Positions 1 to 55,208 of a DNA stretch of 64,000 nucleotides are shown here, one piece after another. Both the position numbers and the translations under genes were made by a program. Origin of the DNA: Onishia taeanensis (GTDB taxonomy: Bacteria; Pseudomonadota; Gammaproteobacteria; Pseudomonadales; Halomonadaceae). The stretch spans positions 274,280-338,279 of the forward strand of contig NZ_QLSX01000002.1 of assembly GCF_003268885.1 (NCBI RefSeq). Direction: 5' to 3'. The notes below the pieces were generated by a model. That model was not told the DNA's origin, did not search any database, and saw nothing but the letters and a program-made list of their open reading frames with translations. The first letter of the stretch is position 1, and every line of letters starts with the position of its first letter.

Positions 1-908
1 AAGTCTCCCTCATGCATGGCGCGATCCAGGTCGCGGTGGGTGGCCGAGATGATGCGCACATCGACAGATACCGAGGCGGTCGAGCCCAGCGGCCGGACCT
101 GACGCTCCTGCAGCACGCGCAACAGTTTCACCTGCAGAGAGAGCGGCATATCGCCGATTTCGTCGAGGAACAGGCTGCCGCCATCGGCGGCCTGGAAGAG
201 CCCTTCATGCTGGCTGATCGCGCCGGTGAACGCTCCCTTGGCGTGACCGAAGAGCTCGCTTTCCAACAGCTGCTCGGGCAGCGCGCCGCAGTTGATGGCG
301 ACGAACGGCTTGTCGGCGCGGGGGCTGGCATCATGCAGGGCGCGCGCCAGCAGTTCCTTGCCCGAGCCCGAGGGGCCACTGACCAGCACGCTGACATCGG
401 CGCCGGCGACCATGCGTGCCTGGTCGAGGATGCGCTCCATCTGCGGGCTGCGGGTGATGATCGCCGAGCGCCAGGCGTCGTCGCCGTCGCCGGCGGCCGG
501 CGCCTGGAGCAGCGCTTCGTCGATCGCCGTGAACAGCTCGTCGCGGTCGACGGGCTTGGTCAGGAAGCTGAACACCCCCTGGCGGGTGGCGCTCACCGCA
601 TCGGGAATCGAACCATGGGCGGTGAGGATGATCACCGGCAGACCTGGGGCTTGGCGCTGGATTTCCTGAAACAGCGCCAGGCCGTCCATCTCATCCATGC
701 GCAGGTCCGAGAGCACCAGGTCCGGGCGCTCAATGGCCAGGCGATCCAGCGCCATGCGGCCGCTGTCGGCGGTGGTGACGCGAAAGCCACGGCTTTCCAG
801 CCGCATGCCCAACAGCCTGAGCAGGCTGGCGTCGTCGTCGACCAGCAGGATATGGGCGATGGGTTTGCTGCCCTTGAGGGCGCCGGTCAGTTGCGCGGCG
901 TCTTTCAC
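1..908 (-). CDS. glrR: Sigma-54-dependent response regulator GlrR (QseF), partial
   Basis: NtrC-type response regulator that activates sigma-54 promoters after phosphorylation by GlrK. The gene continues past the left edge; about 302 residues are visible. I chose the GTG at 908 because a GGGAG ribosome site sits 6 nt upstream and the receiver domain begins just after it. The receiver domain (about residues 18-130) has the acidic pocket DDD at 24-26, phospho-acceptor D68 and switch lysine K118. The AAA+ domain follows, with Walker A GPSGSGKE at 178-185 and the sigma-54 contact loop GAFTGA at 225-230. The C-terminal Fis-type HTH lies outside the window. It is the last visible gene of glrK-qseG-glrR. 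In enterobacteria its known targets are glmY and rpoE promoters; here matching sites lie upstream of the putative RNA at 3.2-3.7 kb. Confidence 0.95.
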
Positions 909-963: not shown

Positions 964-1521
964 TCAGGGGGCCTGCTGTCGCAGGTTAATGCTTTGCTCG
1001 ATATCGCTCAGGGCCTCGAGCTTGTTGGCCATCTCGTCCAGCTGCTCGGCCTGAGCGGCGTTCTCGTCGGCCAGCGCCTGTCGCGCCTGGCTCTGCTCGG
1101 CCAGCTTTTCGGACAGGGCGCGGCGCCCTTCGAGCTCGTTGAGCCAGTAACGCAGCAGCGGCTGCAGCTCGGTCGGCGCCTTGGCCAGGTCGGCCTTGTA
1201 AAGCTCTGAAGCCTGATTCCATTCGCTCTCGCTGCCCCAGGAAAGCACCACGGCGCGAACTAAGCGCTCATGGGTATCGTTGCCCTCGAGGCGGGCCAGC
1301 TGGCGGTCACGCCAGGCACGATCGCCGCGCTGGGAGGCGAGCCCAAAGGCCACCCAGGCCTCGGTCTGGCAGGCGTTTACGGTCAGGCTAGGCCACTCGT
1401 CCTGGCAGCCGGCGGGCAGTTCCGTCAGCGTCGGTGGCGTGGAGGACGTTTGCGCCGGCAGCCACTGGCATCCTGCCAGCAGCGAAACGGCGACCAGCCC
1501 CGTCAGGGTGCGGTACAGCAT
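964..1521 (-). CDS. qseG: QseG/YfhG-like outer-membrane lipoprotein
   Basis: Small lipoprotein of 185 residues with a type II signal peptide: a hydrophobic stretch ending in the lipobox LLAGC, modified cysteine C18. Residues about 125-180 are rich in Glu, Gln, Ala and Lys and look like a coiled coil. Position between glrK (ends 1525) and glrR (starts 908) is the standard place of qseG (yfhG), which in enterobacteria activates the sensor kinase GlrK through contact in the periplasm. Sequence similarity to QseG is judged from length, lipobox and context only. An AAGGA ribosome site lies about 11 nt upstream of the ATG. Confidence 0.8.
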
Positions 1522-1524
1522 GGG

Positions 1525-3045
1525 TCATGAGTTCCTTGCGTCTGCGTCTGCCGCACGGTGCTGCGGTGACGGCATCGTTATCGTATTCGTATCCTGCTGA
1601 TTCGCGCCCTGCGCATTACATACCTGCCAGGGCAGCGTCAGGCGGAAGCACACCGCCAGGCGTGCATCGTCGACCAGTTCCAGATGCCCCTGCTGAGCCT
1701 TGGCACAGTCGGCAGCCACCGACAGGCCGATCCCAGAGCCCTTGAGCGGCCCCTTGCGCCGGGCGCGGCCCTGATAGAAGGGATCGAAGAGCCGCTCGCG
1801 GTCCTCGCCGCCGATCGCATCACCGCTGTTGGCGACCTCCACCAGTAGCACGTCGCCGCGCTGCTGGGCGCGCAGTTCAAGCAGTCCGCCATCTTCACCA
1901 TAGGCAATGGCATTGGACAACAGGTTATCCAGAATGCGGCCGGTGGCGGTGCGGTCGGCCTGCCAGGCCAGCGGCCGATCGCTCCACTTGAGCTGCATGC
2001 CCTTGGCGTCCAGAGCCAGTTGATGCTTGGCCAGCAGTTCCTTGATCAGCGTTGTGACATCGAAACGATCGACGCTGACCTCGGCGTGGTGCTGAAGCAA
2101 ATTATAGTCAAGCAGCTGTTCGATGAGGCGCTGGAGCTCCTCTCCGCTGGCCTCTATCAGCTCGAGGATCTCGTGCTGGCGCGAGGTCAGCTCGCCGGCC
2201 ACCCCGTCGGAAAGCAGCGCCGTGCCTTCCCTGACGCTTGCCAGCGGCGTCTTGAGTTCGTGGGACATGTGGCGCAGAAACTGGCGCTTCTGGGCCTCCA
2301 GCTCGCCAAGCCGCGCCGACAGCCAGTCGAGCCGCTCATCGAGCTGCACCAGCTCCGCCGGCCCCTGCAGCCCCTTCGAGGGCGCGGGCTGGCCGGCGCT
2401 GCCGAGGCTCAGAATGCGTCGCTCGAGCTGGCGAATCGGGCGAATGATCAGCCAGGTGAACAGCAGCATCAGCACCAGACTCGCCGAGACCAGTGCCGTG
2501 GTCTGCACCCACAGACGGGTCTGGACGCCGCCGGCCTGTTCGCGAATACGTTCGATGCGCGCGTCGATATGCCGGTTGGTGGCCTGGCGCACGGCCTCGG
2601 TGCGCTGGGCGAAGGGCACAAACTCGTCGAGCCGGGCCTGGATATCGGCCACCGGGGCATCGAGCAGGGTCTTGAGGCTATCGATGCGTTTGCTCAGTGC
2701 CTGAGCGTCGGGGTTATCGGGCATCAACAACCGCTGCCTGGCCAGCATTGCCTCGAATTCGTCGGCGCGCTGGGTATAGATCTCGCGCAGGCCGGGCTCC
2801 TCCAGCACCGCGTACTGGCGGGCGCTGCGCTCCATCTCCACGGCAAGCGACGACAGTGCCCGGGCGCGACGGGTTTCTTCGACCGCCTGCCGAGCGCTGT
2901 CATCAGCGAGCCGGGTCAGTTCGGAAAGCGCCTGGCCGGCCTGGAACATCAAGATGCCCAGCGGCAGCATCACCACCAGAAAAGCCAGCAGTACGAGTTG
3001 CAGCAGGGAGCGTGGGCGCCATCGGCGCGAGACCTGAGTGGTCAT
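1525..3045 (-). CDS. glrK: Sensor histidine kinase GlrK (QseE)
   Basis: Membrane histidine kinase, 506 residues from the ATG at 3045. The frame is open further upstream, but that extension runs into the terminator at 3224-3251 and has no kinase-like sequence, so I discard it. TM1 is at about 14-34, a periplasmic helical domain follows, and TM2 is at about 180-201. A HAMP-like segment leads to the H-box with phosphorylated H262 (motif SHELKTPLAS). The N-box (NLLSNA) and G-box (GSGIGLSVA) complete the ATPase domain. The short periplasmic region fits GlrK. The gap to qseG is 3 bp, so the genes are co-transcribed. There is no strong ribosome site before 3045, so the start is less certain than the product. 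Confidence 0.92.
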   Translation of the reverse strand: MTTQVSRRWRPRSLLQLVLLAFLVVMLPLGILMFQAGQALSELTRLADDSARQAVEETRRARALSSLAVEMERSARQYAVLEEPGLREIYTQRADEFEAMLARQRLLMPDNPDAQALSKRIDSLKTLLDAPVADIQARLDEFVPFAQRTEAVRQATNRHIDARIERIREQAGGVQTRLWVQTTALVSASLVLMLLFTWLIIRPIRQLERRILSLGSAGQPAPSKGLQGPAELVQLDERLDWLSARLGELEAQKRQFLRHMSHELKTPLASVREGTALLSDGVAGELTSRQHEILELIEASGEELQRLIEQLLDYNLLQHHAEVSVDRFDVTTLIKELLAKHQLALDAKGMQLKWSDRPLAWQADRTATGRILDNLLSNAIAYGEDGGLLELRAQQRGDVLLVEVANSGDAIGGEDRERLFDPFYQGRARRKGPLKGSGIGLSVAADCAKAQQGHLELVDDARLAVCFRLTLPWQVCNAQGANQQDTNTITMPSPQHRAADADARNS

Positions 3046-3223
3046 GACAAGGGTTCTTTGCAGAAGGAGTTGGGACGATGTCATGGGGCTTACCACTGCA
3101 GGATACCAGAGTTGCCGGGAACGACCGCGACCTTTCACGGCATACCGGACCTGGCCGGATGCATGGACCAGGTCATGAGCATGGTCAGGGCTTGGACACG
3201 CCGAGCCACGCCAAGGAATAGGC

Positions 3224-3251
3224 AAAAAAAGAGGGCCGGCAGAGCCGGCCC
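3224..3251 (-). terminator. Rho-independent terminator of the putative glmY-position RNA
   Basis: Perfect 8-bp GC stem (3233-3240 with 3244-3251, loop AGA) followed on the minus strand by TC and seven Ts (complement of 3224-3230). It stops minus-strand transcription upstream of glrK. No protein gene ends here, so the transcript being terminated must be non-coding. Confidence 0.85.
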
Positions 3252-3672
3252 AATACGCAGGGAACTTCAGGTGAAACAATGTCGAGGGAGCAGACGCGTC
3301 TGGCCGGACTGGTCGACATTCTTTCTGGGCCTAAGCCCCGAAGTCACACGACGGGATCGTCACTCGCCAGAAGCTGGCCGTCATGTGTGGGGACGTATCC
3401 CCTCTTCGTTCAGGTGGCAGCGCCGCTTGCGCGTCGCCGCCGGATTCAGCCCCCGAGGGGGCGAGGCATCCTTGCCGAGAGCATCCTTGCCCGTAGCGGT
3501 ACCATTCCTTGCCTGTCGGCGGTACCCGTCTCATCGCTACATCAGTCACACATCGCGTGGAGCAGACGCGGACCGACCCGATCGGGTGACATGCACAGGG
3601 TAGTAAATGCGCCCTGTCAGGCCGGCCAGGAAACGGTTCGAGCCGTGATGAACCGAATCCCTTGCTTGCTCA
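3224..3672 (-). ncRNA. Putative structured small RNA in the glmY position, sigma-54 promoter
   Basis: About 450 nt bounded by a sigma-54-type promoter (3683-3698) and a strong terminator (3224-3251). No credible protein is encoded. Read on the minus strand, about 13 consecutive perfect hairpins can be paired. They include 3634-3639/3650-3655; 3596-3600/3612-3616; 3576-3587; 3554-3558/3566-3570; 3498-3503/3521-3526; two stems with AGGA tetraloops (3479-3492 and 3465-3476); 3449-3462; a UACG tetraloop at 3389-3402; 3366-3378; 3350-3361; 3327-3338; and an 8-bp stem 3278-3285/3313-3320 enclosing a 12-nt palindrome. The place directly upstream of glrK on the same strand is where enterobacteria carry glmY, a sigma-54/GlrR-controlled RNA. 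This one is longer than the 184-nt E. coli GlmY and I see no clear sequence match, so homology is unproven. Its role could be GlmY-like, CsrA-binding, or new. Confidence 0.6.
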
Positions 3673-3682
3673 CTGAATATAT

Positions 3683-3698
3683 AGCGAAGAGCGTGCCA
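3683..3698 (-). promoter_or_regulatory. Sigma-54 (-24/-12) promoter for the putative RNA
   Basis: Minus strand reads TGGCACGCTCTTCGCT against the consensus TGGCACG-N4-TTGCW: 11 of 12 fixed positions match, with GG and GC exactly 10 nt apart. Transcription should start near 3672. It faces the hairpin-rich region and its terminator. Confidence 0.75.
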
Positions 3699-3805: not shown

Positions 3806-3823
3806 CGTCTCCAATTGGCGACG
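3806..3823. promoter_or_regulatory. GlrR-like enhancer site 1 (CGTC-N10-GACG)
   Basis: Inverted half-sites with the 10-bp spacing of the GlrR consensus TGTC-N10-GACA; the outer base of each arm differs. It shares the right-arm context TTGGCGAC with site 2. About 134-151 bp upstream of the predicted start. Confidence 0.45.
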
Positions 3824-3902: not shown

Positions 3903-3919
3903 TGTCGCTGACGGCGACA
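3903..3919. promoter_or_regulatory. GlrR-like enhancer site 3 (TGTC-N9-GACA)
   Basis: Both half-sites are perfect and sit in a larger palindrome with 7-bp arms (GTGTCGC/GCGACAC), but the spacer is 9 bp instead of 10. About 230-247 bp upstream of the predicted RNA start. Confidence 0.4.
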
Positions 3920-4059: not shown

Positions 4060-5373
4060 TCAACTCAGGGTCTTGAGCAGGATCTTCGACTTGCGGGCAT
4101 GGTTGTAGGCATCGCGCTTGAGCGGCGGCAGGTCGTCGATATCGGCGAGTCCGAAGCCCTTTTCGATGAACCAGTGGGCGGTATGAGTGGTCAGCGCGAA
4201 TATCGCCGACAGCCCCCGGCGCCGGGCGCGACGTTCGGCATCGGCCAGCAGCCGCTCGCCGCGATTGCCGCCCCGGTAATCGCCATGCACCGCCACGCAG
4301 GCCAGCTCGCCCATGCGGGCGTCCGGATACTCATGCAGGGCAGCACAGCCGATGATCATGCCGTCACGCTCGATGACCAGATAGTCCTCGATCTCGTGCT
4401 CCAGGCGCTCCCGGGAACGCGGCACCAGCATGCCGCGCCGCTCCAGGGGCTCGAGCAGCTCGAGCAGGCCACCGACGTCGCCTAGCTCGGCGTCGCGCAG
4501 CTGCTCGTAGCGATGCTGGGTGATCATGGTGCCCACGCCGTCGCGGGTGAACAGCTCGCCGAGCAGGGCGTCGTTGTCATGCCAGGACAGCAGGTGAGTG
4601 CGGGCCACGCCATGACGGGCCGCGGCACAGGCCGCCGCCAGGTGGCGAGAAAGCTCGCTGCCGGGAGCCGCCTCGTGCATCAGCGGCTCGGCCTCGGCCG
4701 GGGTCAGCTGGCGCTGTAAAGCCCCGCTTGCGTCATGCAGGCCCTCGGCTTCGCCGAGCAGTACCAGCTTGTCGGCACCCAGTGCCACCGCGGCCTGCTG
4801 GGCGACTTCGGCGGCGTCCAGATCGAACACCTCGCCAGTGCTCGAGAAGCCGAGCGGCGGCAGCACCACCAGCGAGCCCTGATCGAGCAGCGCGTCGATC
4901 GCCTCGGCACGAACCCGTCTCACCTCACCGCTACGGGCGAAGTCGAGGCCGTTGCGCACGCCGAGCGGCTTGGCCATCACCAGATTGCCGGATACCGCCG
5001 TCAGTTCAATGCCGTGCAGCGGCGTATTGGGCAGCCCCAGCGACAGCCGCGCCTCGAACCACAGCCGCTGCTCGGCGGCGATGCGCTCGACCCGCGCCAT
5101 GATGGCGTCATCTGCCACCCAGCGACCATCCTCGCGCCGCGGCGTGATGCCCTCATCGACCAGCGCCGCATTGACCTGGGGGCGAATGCCGAACACCAGC
5201 ACCAGCCGCACGCCCAGGGTATGCAGCAGCGCCAGGTCCTGAATCAGCGATTCGCTGTGACCCGCCGCCATCGCCTCGCCTTCGATCAGCACCACGAAGG
5301 TTCGTCCTCGGTGGGCATTGATGTAGGGCGATGACTGACGAAACCAATCGACGAAGGGAAAGCGCGTATTCAA
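4060..5373 (-). CDS. argA: N-acetylglutamate synthase ArgA
   Basis: Catalyses acetyl-CoA plus glutamate to N-acetylglutamate, first step of arginine synthesis. About 437 residues, close to the 443 of E. coli. The N-terminal amino-acid-kinase-like domain (about 1-285) begins with the family motif YINAHRGRTFV. It binds the feedback inhibitor arginine. The C-terminal GNAT domain (about 290-437) holds the acetyl-CoA site around HGDYRGGNRGERLL. The frame is open to an ATG at 5427, but the family N-terminus matches from TTG at 5373, which has GGAG 8 nt upstream, so I prefer that start. The gene stands alone, with an operator-free upstream gap and the pitA terminator beyond it. Confidence 0.93.
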   Translation of the reverse strand: MNTRFPFVDWFRQSSPYINAHRGRTFVVLIEGEAMAAGHSESLIQDLALLHTLGVRLVLVFGIRPQVNAALVDEGITPRREDGRWVADDAIMARVERIAAEQRLWFEARLSLGLPNTPLHGIELTAVSGNLVMAKPLGVRNGLDFARSGEVRRVRAEAIDALLDQGSLVVLPPLGFSSTGEVFDLDAAEVAQQAAVALGADKLVLLGEAEGLHDASGALQRQLTPAEAEPLMHEAAPGSELSRHLAAACAAARHGVARTHLLSWHDNDALLGELFTRDGVGTMITQHRYEQLRDAELGDVGGLLELLEPLERRGMLVPRSRERLEHEIEDYLVIERDGMIIGCAALHEYPDARMGELACVAVHGDYRGGNRGERLLADAERRARRRGLSAIFALTTHTAHWFIEKGFGLADIDDLPPLKRDAYNHARKSKILLKTLS

Positions 5374-5444
5374 GGGCCGCACTCCGGCAGCTAGAGGGTG
5401 AAATCGGGCAGCATGCCCACCAGCCACGACTATAACAGAGGGCG

Positions 5445-54353: not shown

Positions 54354-54430
54354 TGGCGCGCCCGGGAGGATTCGAACCTCCGACCCTCTGATTCGTAGTC
54401 AGATACTCTATCCAGCTGAGCTACGGGCGC
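54354..54430 (-). tRNA. tRNA-Arg (ACG), second copy
   Basis: 77 nt including an encoded CCA. Acceptor GCGCCCG pairs with CGGGCGC, discriminator G. Anticodon loop CTACGAA gives anticodon ACG; T-loop GGTTCGAATCC. Identical in sequence to the copy at 54518-54594. Confidence 0.97.
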
Positions 54431-54517
54431 GTATTGGGTAGTGCTCGTGTTGGAAGGGCATCAAACTAAGCCACAACCAATACCCAGCGAGAAATTACTT
54501 TCACGCGGGGGAGAAGA

Positions 54518-54594
54518 TGGCGCGCCCGGGAGGATTCGAACCTCCGACCCTCTGATTCGTAGTCAGATACTCTATCCAGCTGAGCTACGGGCGC
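54518..54594 (-). tRNA. tRNA-Arg (ACG), first copy
   Basis: 77 nt with encoded CCA, identical to the neighbouring copy. The spacer of 87 bp between the copies is not conserved. Lies 56 bp after tRNA-Ser on the same strand. Confidence 0.97.
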
Positions 54595-54650
54595 GTGCTT
54601 TCGCGTTTCATCTTCGTTGTGCTGATGTTGCTGCGACGGATCGCAGTTAA

Positions 54651-54743
54651 TGGCGGAGAGAGAGGGATTCGAACCCTCGATGAGGCTATAAACCCCATAC
54701 TCCCTTAGCAGGGGAGCGCCTTCAGCCACTCGGCCACCTCTCC
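54651..54743 (-). tRNA. tRNA-Ser (GCT)
   Basis: 93 nt with long variable arm and encoded CCA. Acceptor GGAGAGG, anticodon GCT in CTGCTAA, T-arm GGTTCGAATCC. Its place just downstream of csrA is conserved in Pseudomonas and relatives. Confidence 0.97.
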
Positions 54744-55007: not shown

Positions 55008-55208
55008 TTACGCCAACGGCTCCTGCTCGCCGTCTTCCTCGGTATTCTCGCGTTGGATACGCTGATAGATTTCTTCACGATGTACTGCGACATCCTTGGG
55101 AGCATTCACGCCAATGCGTACCTGATTCCCTTTGACGCCCAGCACAGTCACGGTGACTTCATCACCAATCATCAAGGTTTCGCCGACACGGCGGGTCAGG
55201 ATGAGCAT
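55008..55208 (-). CDS. csrA: Carbon storage regulator CsrA (RsmA)
   Basis: RNA-binding translational regulator, 66 residues. Starts [16 protein letters not shown], with the RNA-contact residues L4 and R44 present (VHREEIY). ATG 55208 has AAGGAGATC upstream; the open frame before it is not CsrA sequence. Gene order lysC-csrA-tRNA-Ser is the standard one. Acidic C-terminal tail ([13 protein letters not shown]) is longer than the 61-residue E. coli protein. Confidence 0.97.

Follow-up and report, generated by a model that had tools for sequence, protein, structure and literature searches.

In Escherichia coli, the GlmY RNA is encoded upstream of glrK-qseG-glrR; it is 184 nt long and is known mainly from Enterobacterales. 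Qrr and CrcZ are examples of sRNAs that are driven by sigma-54 together with an enhancer-binding protein. The QseF (GlrR) box has the consensus TGTCN10GACA (PMC8745638), and E. coli glmY is described as having three UAS together with IHF (PMC6075780). We noted that a region within a 64-kb window (the whole stretch of DNA analyzed here) resembles the glmY locus in its place upstream of glrK(qseE)-qseG-glrR(qseF), in its sigma-54 promoter with GlrR-type boxes, and in having its own terminator (Table 1). It differs from GlmY (RF00128) in that the predicted RNA is approximately 2.4 times longer than 184 nt and carries ANGGA hairpins, in that it has no covariance-model match, and in that there is no sign of a glmS site. 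Because a sigma-54 promoter, a GlrR-type upstream box, strong covariation and a terminator are found together, the stretch from 3672 to 3224 on the minus strand is, judged from its sequence, almost certainly a real noncoding RNA gene in the salt-loving Halomonadaceae, and we infer that it is transcribed. The original prediction had placed here a structured RNA without a protein gene, starting at a sigma-54 promoter and ending in a terminator, and it was borne out on these points. No published description of the RNA was found in the literature searched, outside of which most subscription journals fell, and it looks to be undescribed so far.

The reading of the locus as glrK-qseG-glrR stood for glrK, whose product has HisKA and HATPase_c domains. 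It also stood for glrR as a best match, the product of 3-908 being matched best by the GlrR model at 515.5 bits, under the cut-off of 763. The label qseG rests on position, since the product of 964-1521 has no family match. In two genomes from a different family of this order, a gene for a small EF-hand protein lies just before glrK (L103:1137-1388 and L104:1093-1368; L and G numbers denote loci and genomes), in the place that the RNA occupies in Halomonadaceae. By eye, these genes are preceded by a sigma-54-like promoter and GTC-N10-GAC-like boxes.

Table 1. Features of the window, with positions counted from its first nucleotide.
Feature	Position	Strand	Basis or remark
Noncoding RNA gene (almost certain), ~449 nt	3224..3672	(-)	5' end predicted from promoter, 3' end from terminator
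Sigma-54 promoter TGGCACGCTCTTCGC (-24/-12), GG-N10-GC	3684..3698	(-)	sequence pattern; predicts start at ~3672
GlrR/QseF-type box GTCGCCAATTGGAGAC (GTC-N10-GAC)	3807..3822	(-)	sequence pattern; in relatives, boxes of this type are enriched and phased
Possible degenerate second box TGTCGCCGTCAGCGACA	3903..3919	(-)	spacer 9, not 10; off the phased positions; low weight
Most conserved core (query 192-311)	3450..3569	(-)	blastn, alignment
Conserved ANGGA site 1, AAGGA, next to stem GGUACC/GGUACC	3506..3510	(-)	not a hexaloop
Hairpin GGGC[AAGGAU]GCUC, ANGGAN hexaloop	3479..3492	(-)	closing pair probability 0.87 in full RNA
Hairpin GGC[AAGGAU]GCC, ANGGAN hexaloop	3465..3476	(-)	closing pair probability 0.27 in full RNA, 0.85 in isolated core
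Helix 11, 5' arm, CGAAGA here (commonest form CGAAGC)	3403..3408	(-)	pairs with 3344-3339
Helix 11, 3' arm	3339..3344	(-)	crosses helix 13 (pseudoknot)
Helix 13, 5' arm, UCUGGC	3366..3371	(-)	comparative model
Helix 13, 3' arm, GCCAGA	3299..3304	(-)	comparative model
3' module ACCUGAAGUUCCCUGCGUA, candidate seed	3254..3272	(-)	consensus CCCUUCAGUUCCCUGCGUA; AGUUCCCUGCGUA invariant in 30 aligned
Intrinsic terminator, GGGCCGGC-TCT-GCCGGCCC hairpin at 3251-3233, then seven T (3230-3224)	3224..3251	(-)	helix 15
glrK-like sensor kinase gene, downstream of RNA	1525..3063	(-)	HisKA and HATPase_c
Lipoprotein-like ORF in qseG position	964..1521	(-)	lipobox-like N terminus by eye; no family match
glrR-like sigma-54 response regulator gene, cut by window edge	1..908	(-)	best model is GlrR
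argA-type gene, upstream of RNA	4060-5427		position in window
csrA	55053-55208	(-)	near tRNA cluster 54357-54743

Folding of the 449-nt RNA on its own gave -196.3 kcal/mol (z -2.55), with 1 of 100 shuffled sequences folding equally well; the opposite strand of 3224-3672 gave z -1.50. The single-sequence fold is only moderately above chance, and the comparative data are the actual evidence for an RNA. We aligned 30 homologues from the promoter GG through the T run (lengths of 453 to 503 nt), setting aside two that were longer (572 and 585 nt). RNAalifold returned 67 pairs for these 30 sequences, 33 of them with double changes. A structure of 80 pairs was derived from the same alignment, with pairs added by hand. 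Across the 30 homologues, 94.9% of its cells were paired, compared with 88.4% after shuffling and 36 to 47% when the structure was slid, and both sides had changed in 42 of the 80 pairs, compared with 20.4 in shuffled alignments. None of 500 shuffles matched the observed values and all slid controls were exceeded, a comparison in which an alignment-derived structure favors itself and in which the kinship of the sequences inflates the shuffle result. Compensatory changes are a stronger sign of structure than the pairing fraction. Double changes were seen in 4 of 6 pairs of helix 11 (alignment columns 346-351/431-436) and in 3 of 6 pairs of helix 13 (columns 404-409/488-493); because these helices cross and both carry compensated changes, a pseudoknot is implied, for which there is modest support. 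A long-range GAGC/GUUC helix that was also considered proved unsupported, being invariant across the alignment. The 13 successive perfect hairpins of the original prediction were thus overstated: the RNA is structured, but the comparative model has 15 helices, with one pair crossing and many imperfect.

Among the three frames that cross the core in the sense direction, one hits a stop at once in all 30 homologues, and the other two run into a stop after at most 16 codons in 12, 7 or 4 of the 30, depending on the starting point. The longest sense ORF starts at positions 134 to 165, where there are conserved ATGs, in 15 of 30 homologues. A small protein encoded by the region was rejected, as no sense frame stays open across all 30. 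The search for a conserved frame therefore leaves the RNA gene standing, as does the count of double-changed pairs given above.

A search of the window against Rfam returned three tRNAs above threshold and nothing else, which separates the RNA from Qrr and CrcZ, whose drive by sigma-54 and an enhancer-binding protein it appears to share. With E values up to 10, the region gave seven subthreshold matches, among which there was no GlmY, GlmZ, CsrB or Rsm family (RsmZ included), the check that had been proposed with the prediction. At 3218-3282 on the minus strand, a subthreshold match to the suhB/mmgR family reached 22.3 bits against a gathering threshold of 41 and is probably due to chance. The GlmY model was over its cut-off in none of 20 relatives (best match 16.1 bits, E 0.64); among 14 control genomes, E. 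coli and Thermotoga maritima were matched, one of them over the cut-off. Reading the 220 nt upstream of glmS by eye at 22 loci in 20 genomes also revealed nothing complementary to the 3' module that was shared between loci. Homology to GlmY and glmS as a target were each rejected on these results, although GlmY and this RNA may still have a very distant ancestor in common. Three options had been named at the outset: a diverged GlmY, an unrelated RNA replacing it, and a novel RNA class tied into the GlrR circuit. In the absence of a GlmY signal and with strong sigma-54/GlrR boxes, the last two are favored and merge into one. Since the sigma-54 promoter and GlrR boxes are present and the GlmY model fails, the promoter logic of glmY appears to have been kept with an RNA unrecognizable as GlmY.

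In order to determine the distribution of the RNA, blastn was carried out across 201 genomes of the family; 126 matched, representing 16 of 24 genera, and the best-conserved parts were the core block (3569-3450) and the 3' end. A scan of 84,980 species genomes with the 19-mer CCCTTCAGTTCCCTGCGTA yielded at least 119 stretches. Halomonadaceae genera account for 116 of the 119 matches listed; membership was checked for two genera of carriers, and the remaining genera we take to belong to this family. An unclassified gammaproteobacterium (L203) carries the full RNA. Terasakiispira (L214) is an unplaced member of the Oceanospirillales in NCBI and falls in the window's own family in the genome grouping used, and a contig of a Chloroflexi MAG (L114) has the 19-mer without promoter or terminator. 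In 107 of the 119 matches listed, the 19-mer is followed on its own strand by a glrK-like sequence that starts 118 to 343 nt away. When 26 genomes were compared, 16 carried the 3' module in one or more exact copies, the window genome and one congener had a variant copy at the glrK-upstream locus, and the copy in G013 was too diverged for the mismatch-limited search. In G002, G016, G017 and G018, glrK lies directly beside argA with no RNA between; in G004, G010 and G024, the best GlrK match reached only E 1e-22 to 1e-26. No module copy with fewer than three mismatches was found in any of these seven. A core model of 122 positions run on 390 genomes of the order gave 10 strong hits, all within the own family, and missed 8 listed genomes of that family, three of which (G015, G036 and G050, genus g15) have diverged versions. 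Seven matches outside the family (18 to 23 bits) appear to be due to chance or to come from an unrelated sRNA and were not taken as wider homologues. Among the matches listed, the RNA family would thus appear to occur almost only in Halomonadaceae.

A single sigma-54 match with A+T-rich DNA upstream was present at 69 of 79 loci and, among the 3'-module matches listed, at 105 of 119; the initial promoter, box and hairpin counts omit 39 of the 119 listed loci, and the larger-set counts include them. GTC-N10-GAC was found upstream of 54 of 66 promoters (86 boxes), compared with a shuffle mean of 2.3 promoters (maximum, 6) and with 4 of 66 for the RNA body, which served as a control. The larger set gave 78 of 99 promoters among the matches listed. 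When spacers of 4 to 16 were compared, only 10 stood out, every other spacer occurring at no more than 13 of the 66 promoters. Box centers lay mostly at -105/-118, -170/-184 and approximately -226. The strict box was not found in 12 of the 66, L134 and L136 included. Genome-wide searches of 101 genomes for a GlrR box combined with the sigma-54 pattern gave counts often below the control and were set aside as uninformative. Taken as a prediction, a GlrR-activated sigma-54 promoter is well supported.

The core contains three conserved ANGGA sites, in which N is A, U or C according to species and A and GGA are constant. Hairpins with an ANGGAN hexaloop and at least three stem pairs numbered 132 in 69 RNAs, compared with a shuffle mean of 7.3 (maximum, 13) and with 7 for the reversed motif. 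In 105 RNAs from the matches listed there were 198, compared with 11 for the reversed motif, and 96 of the 105 had two or more; these counts are not independent, as most come from homologous RNAs. The stem varies and the loop is constant, as in GGA[AUGGAU]UCC, CGGG[AAGGAU]CCCG and GGAC[ACGGAU]GUCC. By eye, L053 has GGGGU[AAGGAU]ACCCC. L055, which has three ANGGA sites, and L178 (Larsenimonas) present an AUGGAU hexaloop in the next hairpin, where the stem is a different one. The window RNA has 4 ANGGA and 5 GGA, the means over 69 RNAs being 4.2 and 8.3. ANGGA was not found in L064/L214, L134, L209 or L211, and L124 has two ANGGA, with neither CANGGA nor a hexaloop. Single-sequence folds of L123, L153 and L156 place most ANGGA sites in base pairs. 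The motif GGCANGGANGCC was of no use as a classifier, with 38 sites in the own genome compared with 6 for the control. In another family, the intergenic-looking stretch L099:1400-1760 has GGCANGGANGCC hairpins and a terminator and is possibly an Rsm-type RNA; Rfam returned nothing for it at E values up to 1.

csrA was found in all 14 genomes tested, and a preprint describes the CsrA of Halomonas hydrothermalis as 86.44% identical to that of E. coli, with an uncharacterized regulon (PMC12889724). In the solved RsmN-RsmZ-2 complex, RsmN, a protein of the RsmA/CsrA type, binds the RsmZ-2 hairpin, whose G-rich stem is capped by an AAGGAU hexaloop (PMC3791407). The Halomonadaceae RNAs resemble CsrB/CsrC and RsmX/Y/Z in this respect, carrying ANGGA in hairpin loops with ANGGAN hexaloops like that of RsmZ hairpin 2. 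Unlike CsrB/RsmZ-type RNAs, which have many GGA sites (22 in CsrB and 14 in CsrC [PMC11882849], compared with five in the window RNA), they have few, with three conserved ANGGA and four in all in the window RNA. They also differ in their sigma-54/GlrR-type promoter, covarying pseudoknot and lack of an Rfam match. Spot 42, McaS, GadY and SgrS are named as CsrA binders (PMC11882849), and the dual logic that we propose below, mRNA pairing plus a few CsrA sites, is akin to theirs; here, there is no above-threshold Rfam match, and both the control and the taxon are different. Judged by the motif, the ANGGA hairpins look like docking sites to which CsrA would bind.

The sequence AGUUCCCUGCGUA before the terminator is invariant across the 30 aligned homologues and is common to sibling sRNAs elsewhere, some of which lack ANGGA. 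The window's own 3' module is three positions off consensus. In the window genus, the first half of the module has drifted (ACCTGAAGTTCCC; CCCTTAAGTTCCC in a congener), and AGTTCCCTGCGTA is left. Besides L114, the 119 matches listed include 11 module copies without glrK, 9 of them with a promoter match; L167 and L194 in this group retain the core, as does L039, the longer stretch that covers L126. L123, L153 and L156 (278 to 294 nt) and L136 (203 nt) have ANGGA sites and otherwise look different. A minimal sibling, consisting of hairpins, 3' module and terminator, is found in L134, L209 and L211, where it reaches from ~80 nt before the 19-mer as far as the T run; the L134 RNA is the shortest measured (~104 nt). 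This form offers a natural minimal version for experiments. Several genomes have three module copies, e.g., Modicisalibacter luteus (L134, L153 and L207). L128 has module and terminator and no promoter match, and L064/L214 is a short glrK-linked version of ~152 nt. At L040:2579-2825, a shorter second sRNA follows the first RNA in tandem, ahead of glrK; it has a sigma-54 promoter of its own, and its 3' module is almost the same. Since the siblings keep the module while ANGGA and other parts differ, the module is the constant element of the family, and it may be a seed or a protein site.

Complements of the 13-mer with at most one mismatch occurred at 39 sites in 12 genomes, compared with 108 for a reversed-pattern control, and 13 of the 39 fall, by position, at RNA genes. 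Among 17 near-complement loci inspected, L295 and L303 proved to be further module copies. No recurrent target gene was found among the 15 near-complements inspected of 24 possible in the 12 genomes, and a long mRNA complement of the 13-mer as the target was rejected on this result.

We give an even chance to the proposal that these RNAs form a GlrR/sigma-54-activated family of trans-acting sRNAs, with a 3' module that acts on mRNAs and ANGGA hairpins that bind CsrA. Phosphorylated GlrR would bind the phased GTC-N10-GAC boxes and drive sigma-54 polymerase at 3698-3684, a step well supported by the sequence. The product, for which covariation argues, would be a heavily folded and partly pseudoknotted RNA of ~449 nt ending at the terminator. 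AGUUCCCUGCGUA would be its functional 3' end, the C-rich stretch pairing with, e.g., AGGGA-type ribosome binding sites, and its U-tail may serve Hfq. The two ANGGAN hexaloops and the third ANGGA would, going by their motif, bind CsrA; either the RNA would titrate CsrA or CsrA would protect the RNA, and a GlrK/GlrR signal would in this way reach the Csr network. The 3' module would be the constant part of the family and the CsrA-type hairpins a frequent, not universal, addition.

The two functional parts of this proposal each have a rival. It is fairly unlikely that the 3' module is the recognition site of a protein (an RNA-binding protein or RNase adaptor) and not an mRNA-pairing seed. Its 13 nt, invariant in the 30 aligned homologues and present in siblings, exceed the usual seed length, and the near-complements inspected contained no recurrent long mRNA complement; however, that search addressed the 13-mer, which is longer than short seeds of 6 to 8 nt, and a C/U-rich module beside a U-rich terminator would suit an Hfq-type seed. 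That the RNA does nothing but sponge CsrA/RsmA, in the manner of CsrB/RsmZ, with the 3' module merely for termination or stability, is quite unlikely. Although ANGGAN hexaloops are far above chance, stem changes preserve the loop, and the core model picked up the GGCANGGANGCC hairpins of L099 in another family, the sites are few and members without ANGGA (L064/L214, L134, L209 and L211) keep the 3' module. The sigma-54/GlrR-type promoter and the lack of an Rfam match to CsrB, RsmY or RsmZ also speak against a sponge.

The position of the gene suggests two further readings. The RNA is unlikely to be a strongly diverged or functional GlmY analogue that acts as a RapZ decoy to control glmS and in which the ANGGA hairpins are incidental: no GlmY match was seen in the region up to E 10 or over the cut-off in 20 genomes, and the 22 glmS loci, read by eye over 220 nt, shared no sequence complementary to the 3' module. 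Such an analogue would nevertheless fit the shared locus, strand and sigma-54/GlrR promoter logic, the short version of ~152 nt (L064/L214), which is nearer GlmY in size, and the stretch right before the terminator, which is likely unpaired. If the RNA were a leader acting in cis on the glrK operon, as an attenuator or riboswitch, this would account for its place ahead of glrK and in the same orientation at 107 of the 119 matches listed, but the strong terminator, the nine glrK-less copies with their own promoter match among the matches listed, and the tandem second copy in L040 make it very improbable that this is not a free RNA.

More tentatively, and with somewhat less than even confidence, the RNAs may constitute a new sRNA superfamily in which GlrK/GlrR, as an envelope-linked system, exerts direct control over both CsrA and mRNAs by means of multicopy sigma-54 sRNAs. 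If so, different RNAs would share the promoter-proximal place before glrK in Enterobacterales (GlmY) and Halomonadaceae, with an EF-hand protein gene in that place in another family of the same order. The stimulus of GlrK/GlrR is given as unknown even in E. coli K-12 in one account of the system (PMC6075780). A different RNA in the circuit of this conserved envelope-linked sensor would show what purpose it has beyond GlmY and would tie it to the Csr network, and this would be a case of one RNA at the regulatory address of another. The Halomonadaceae would gain a native sRNA that is strongly conserved and whose switch can be put to the test.
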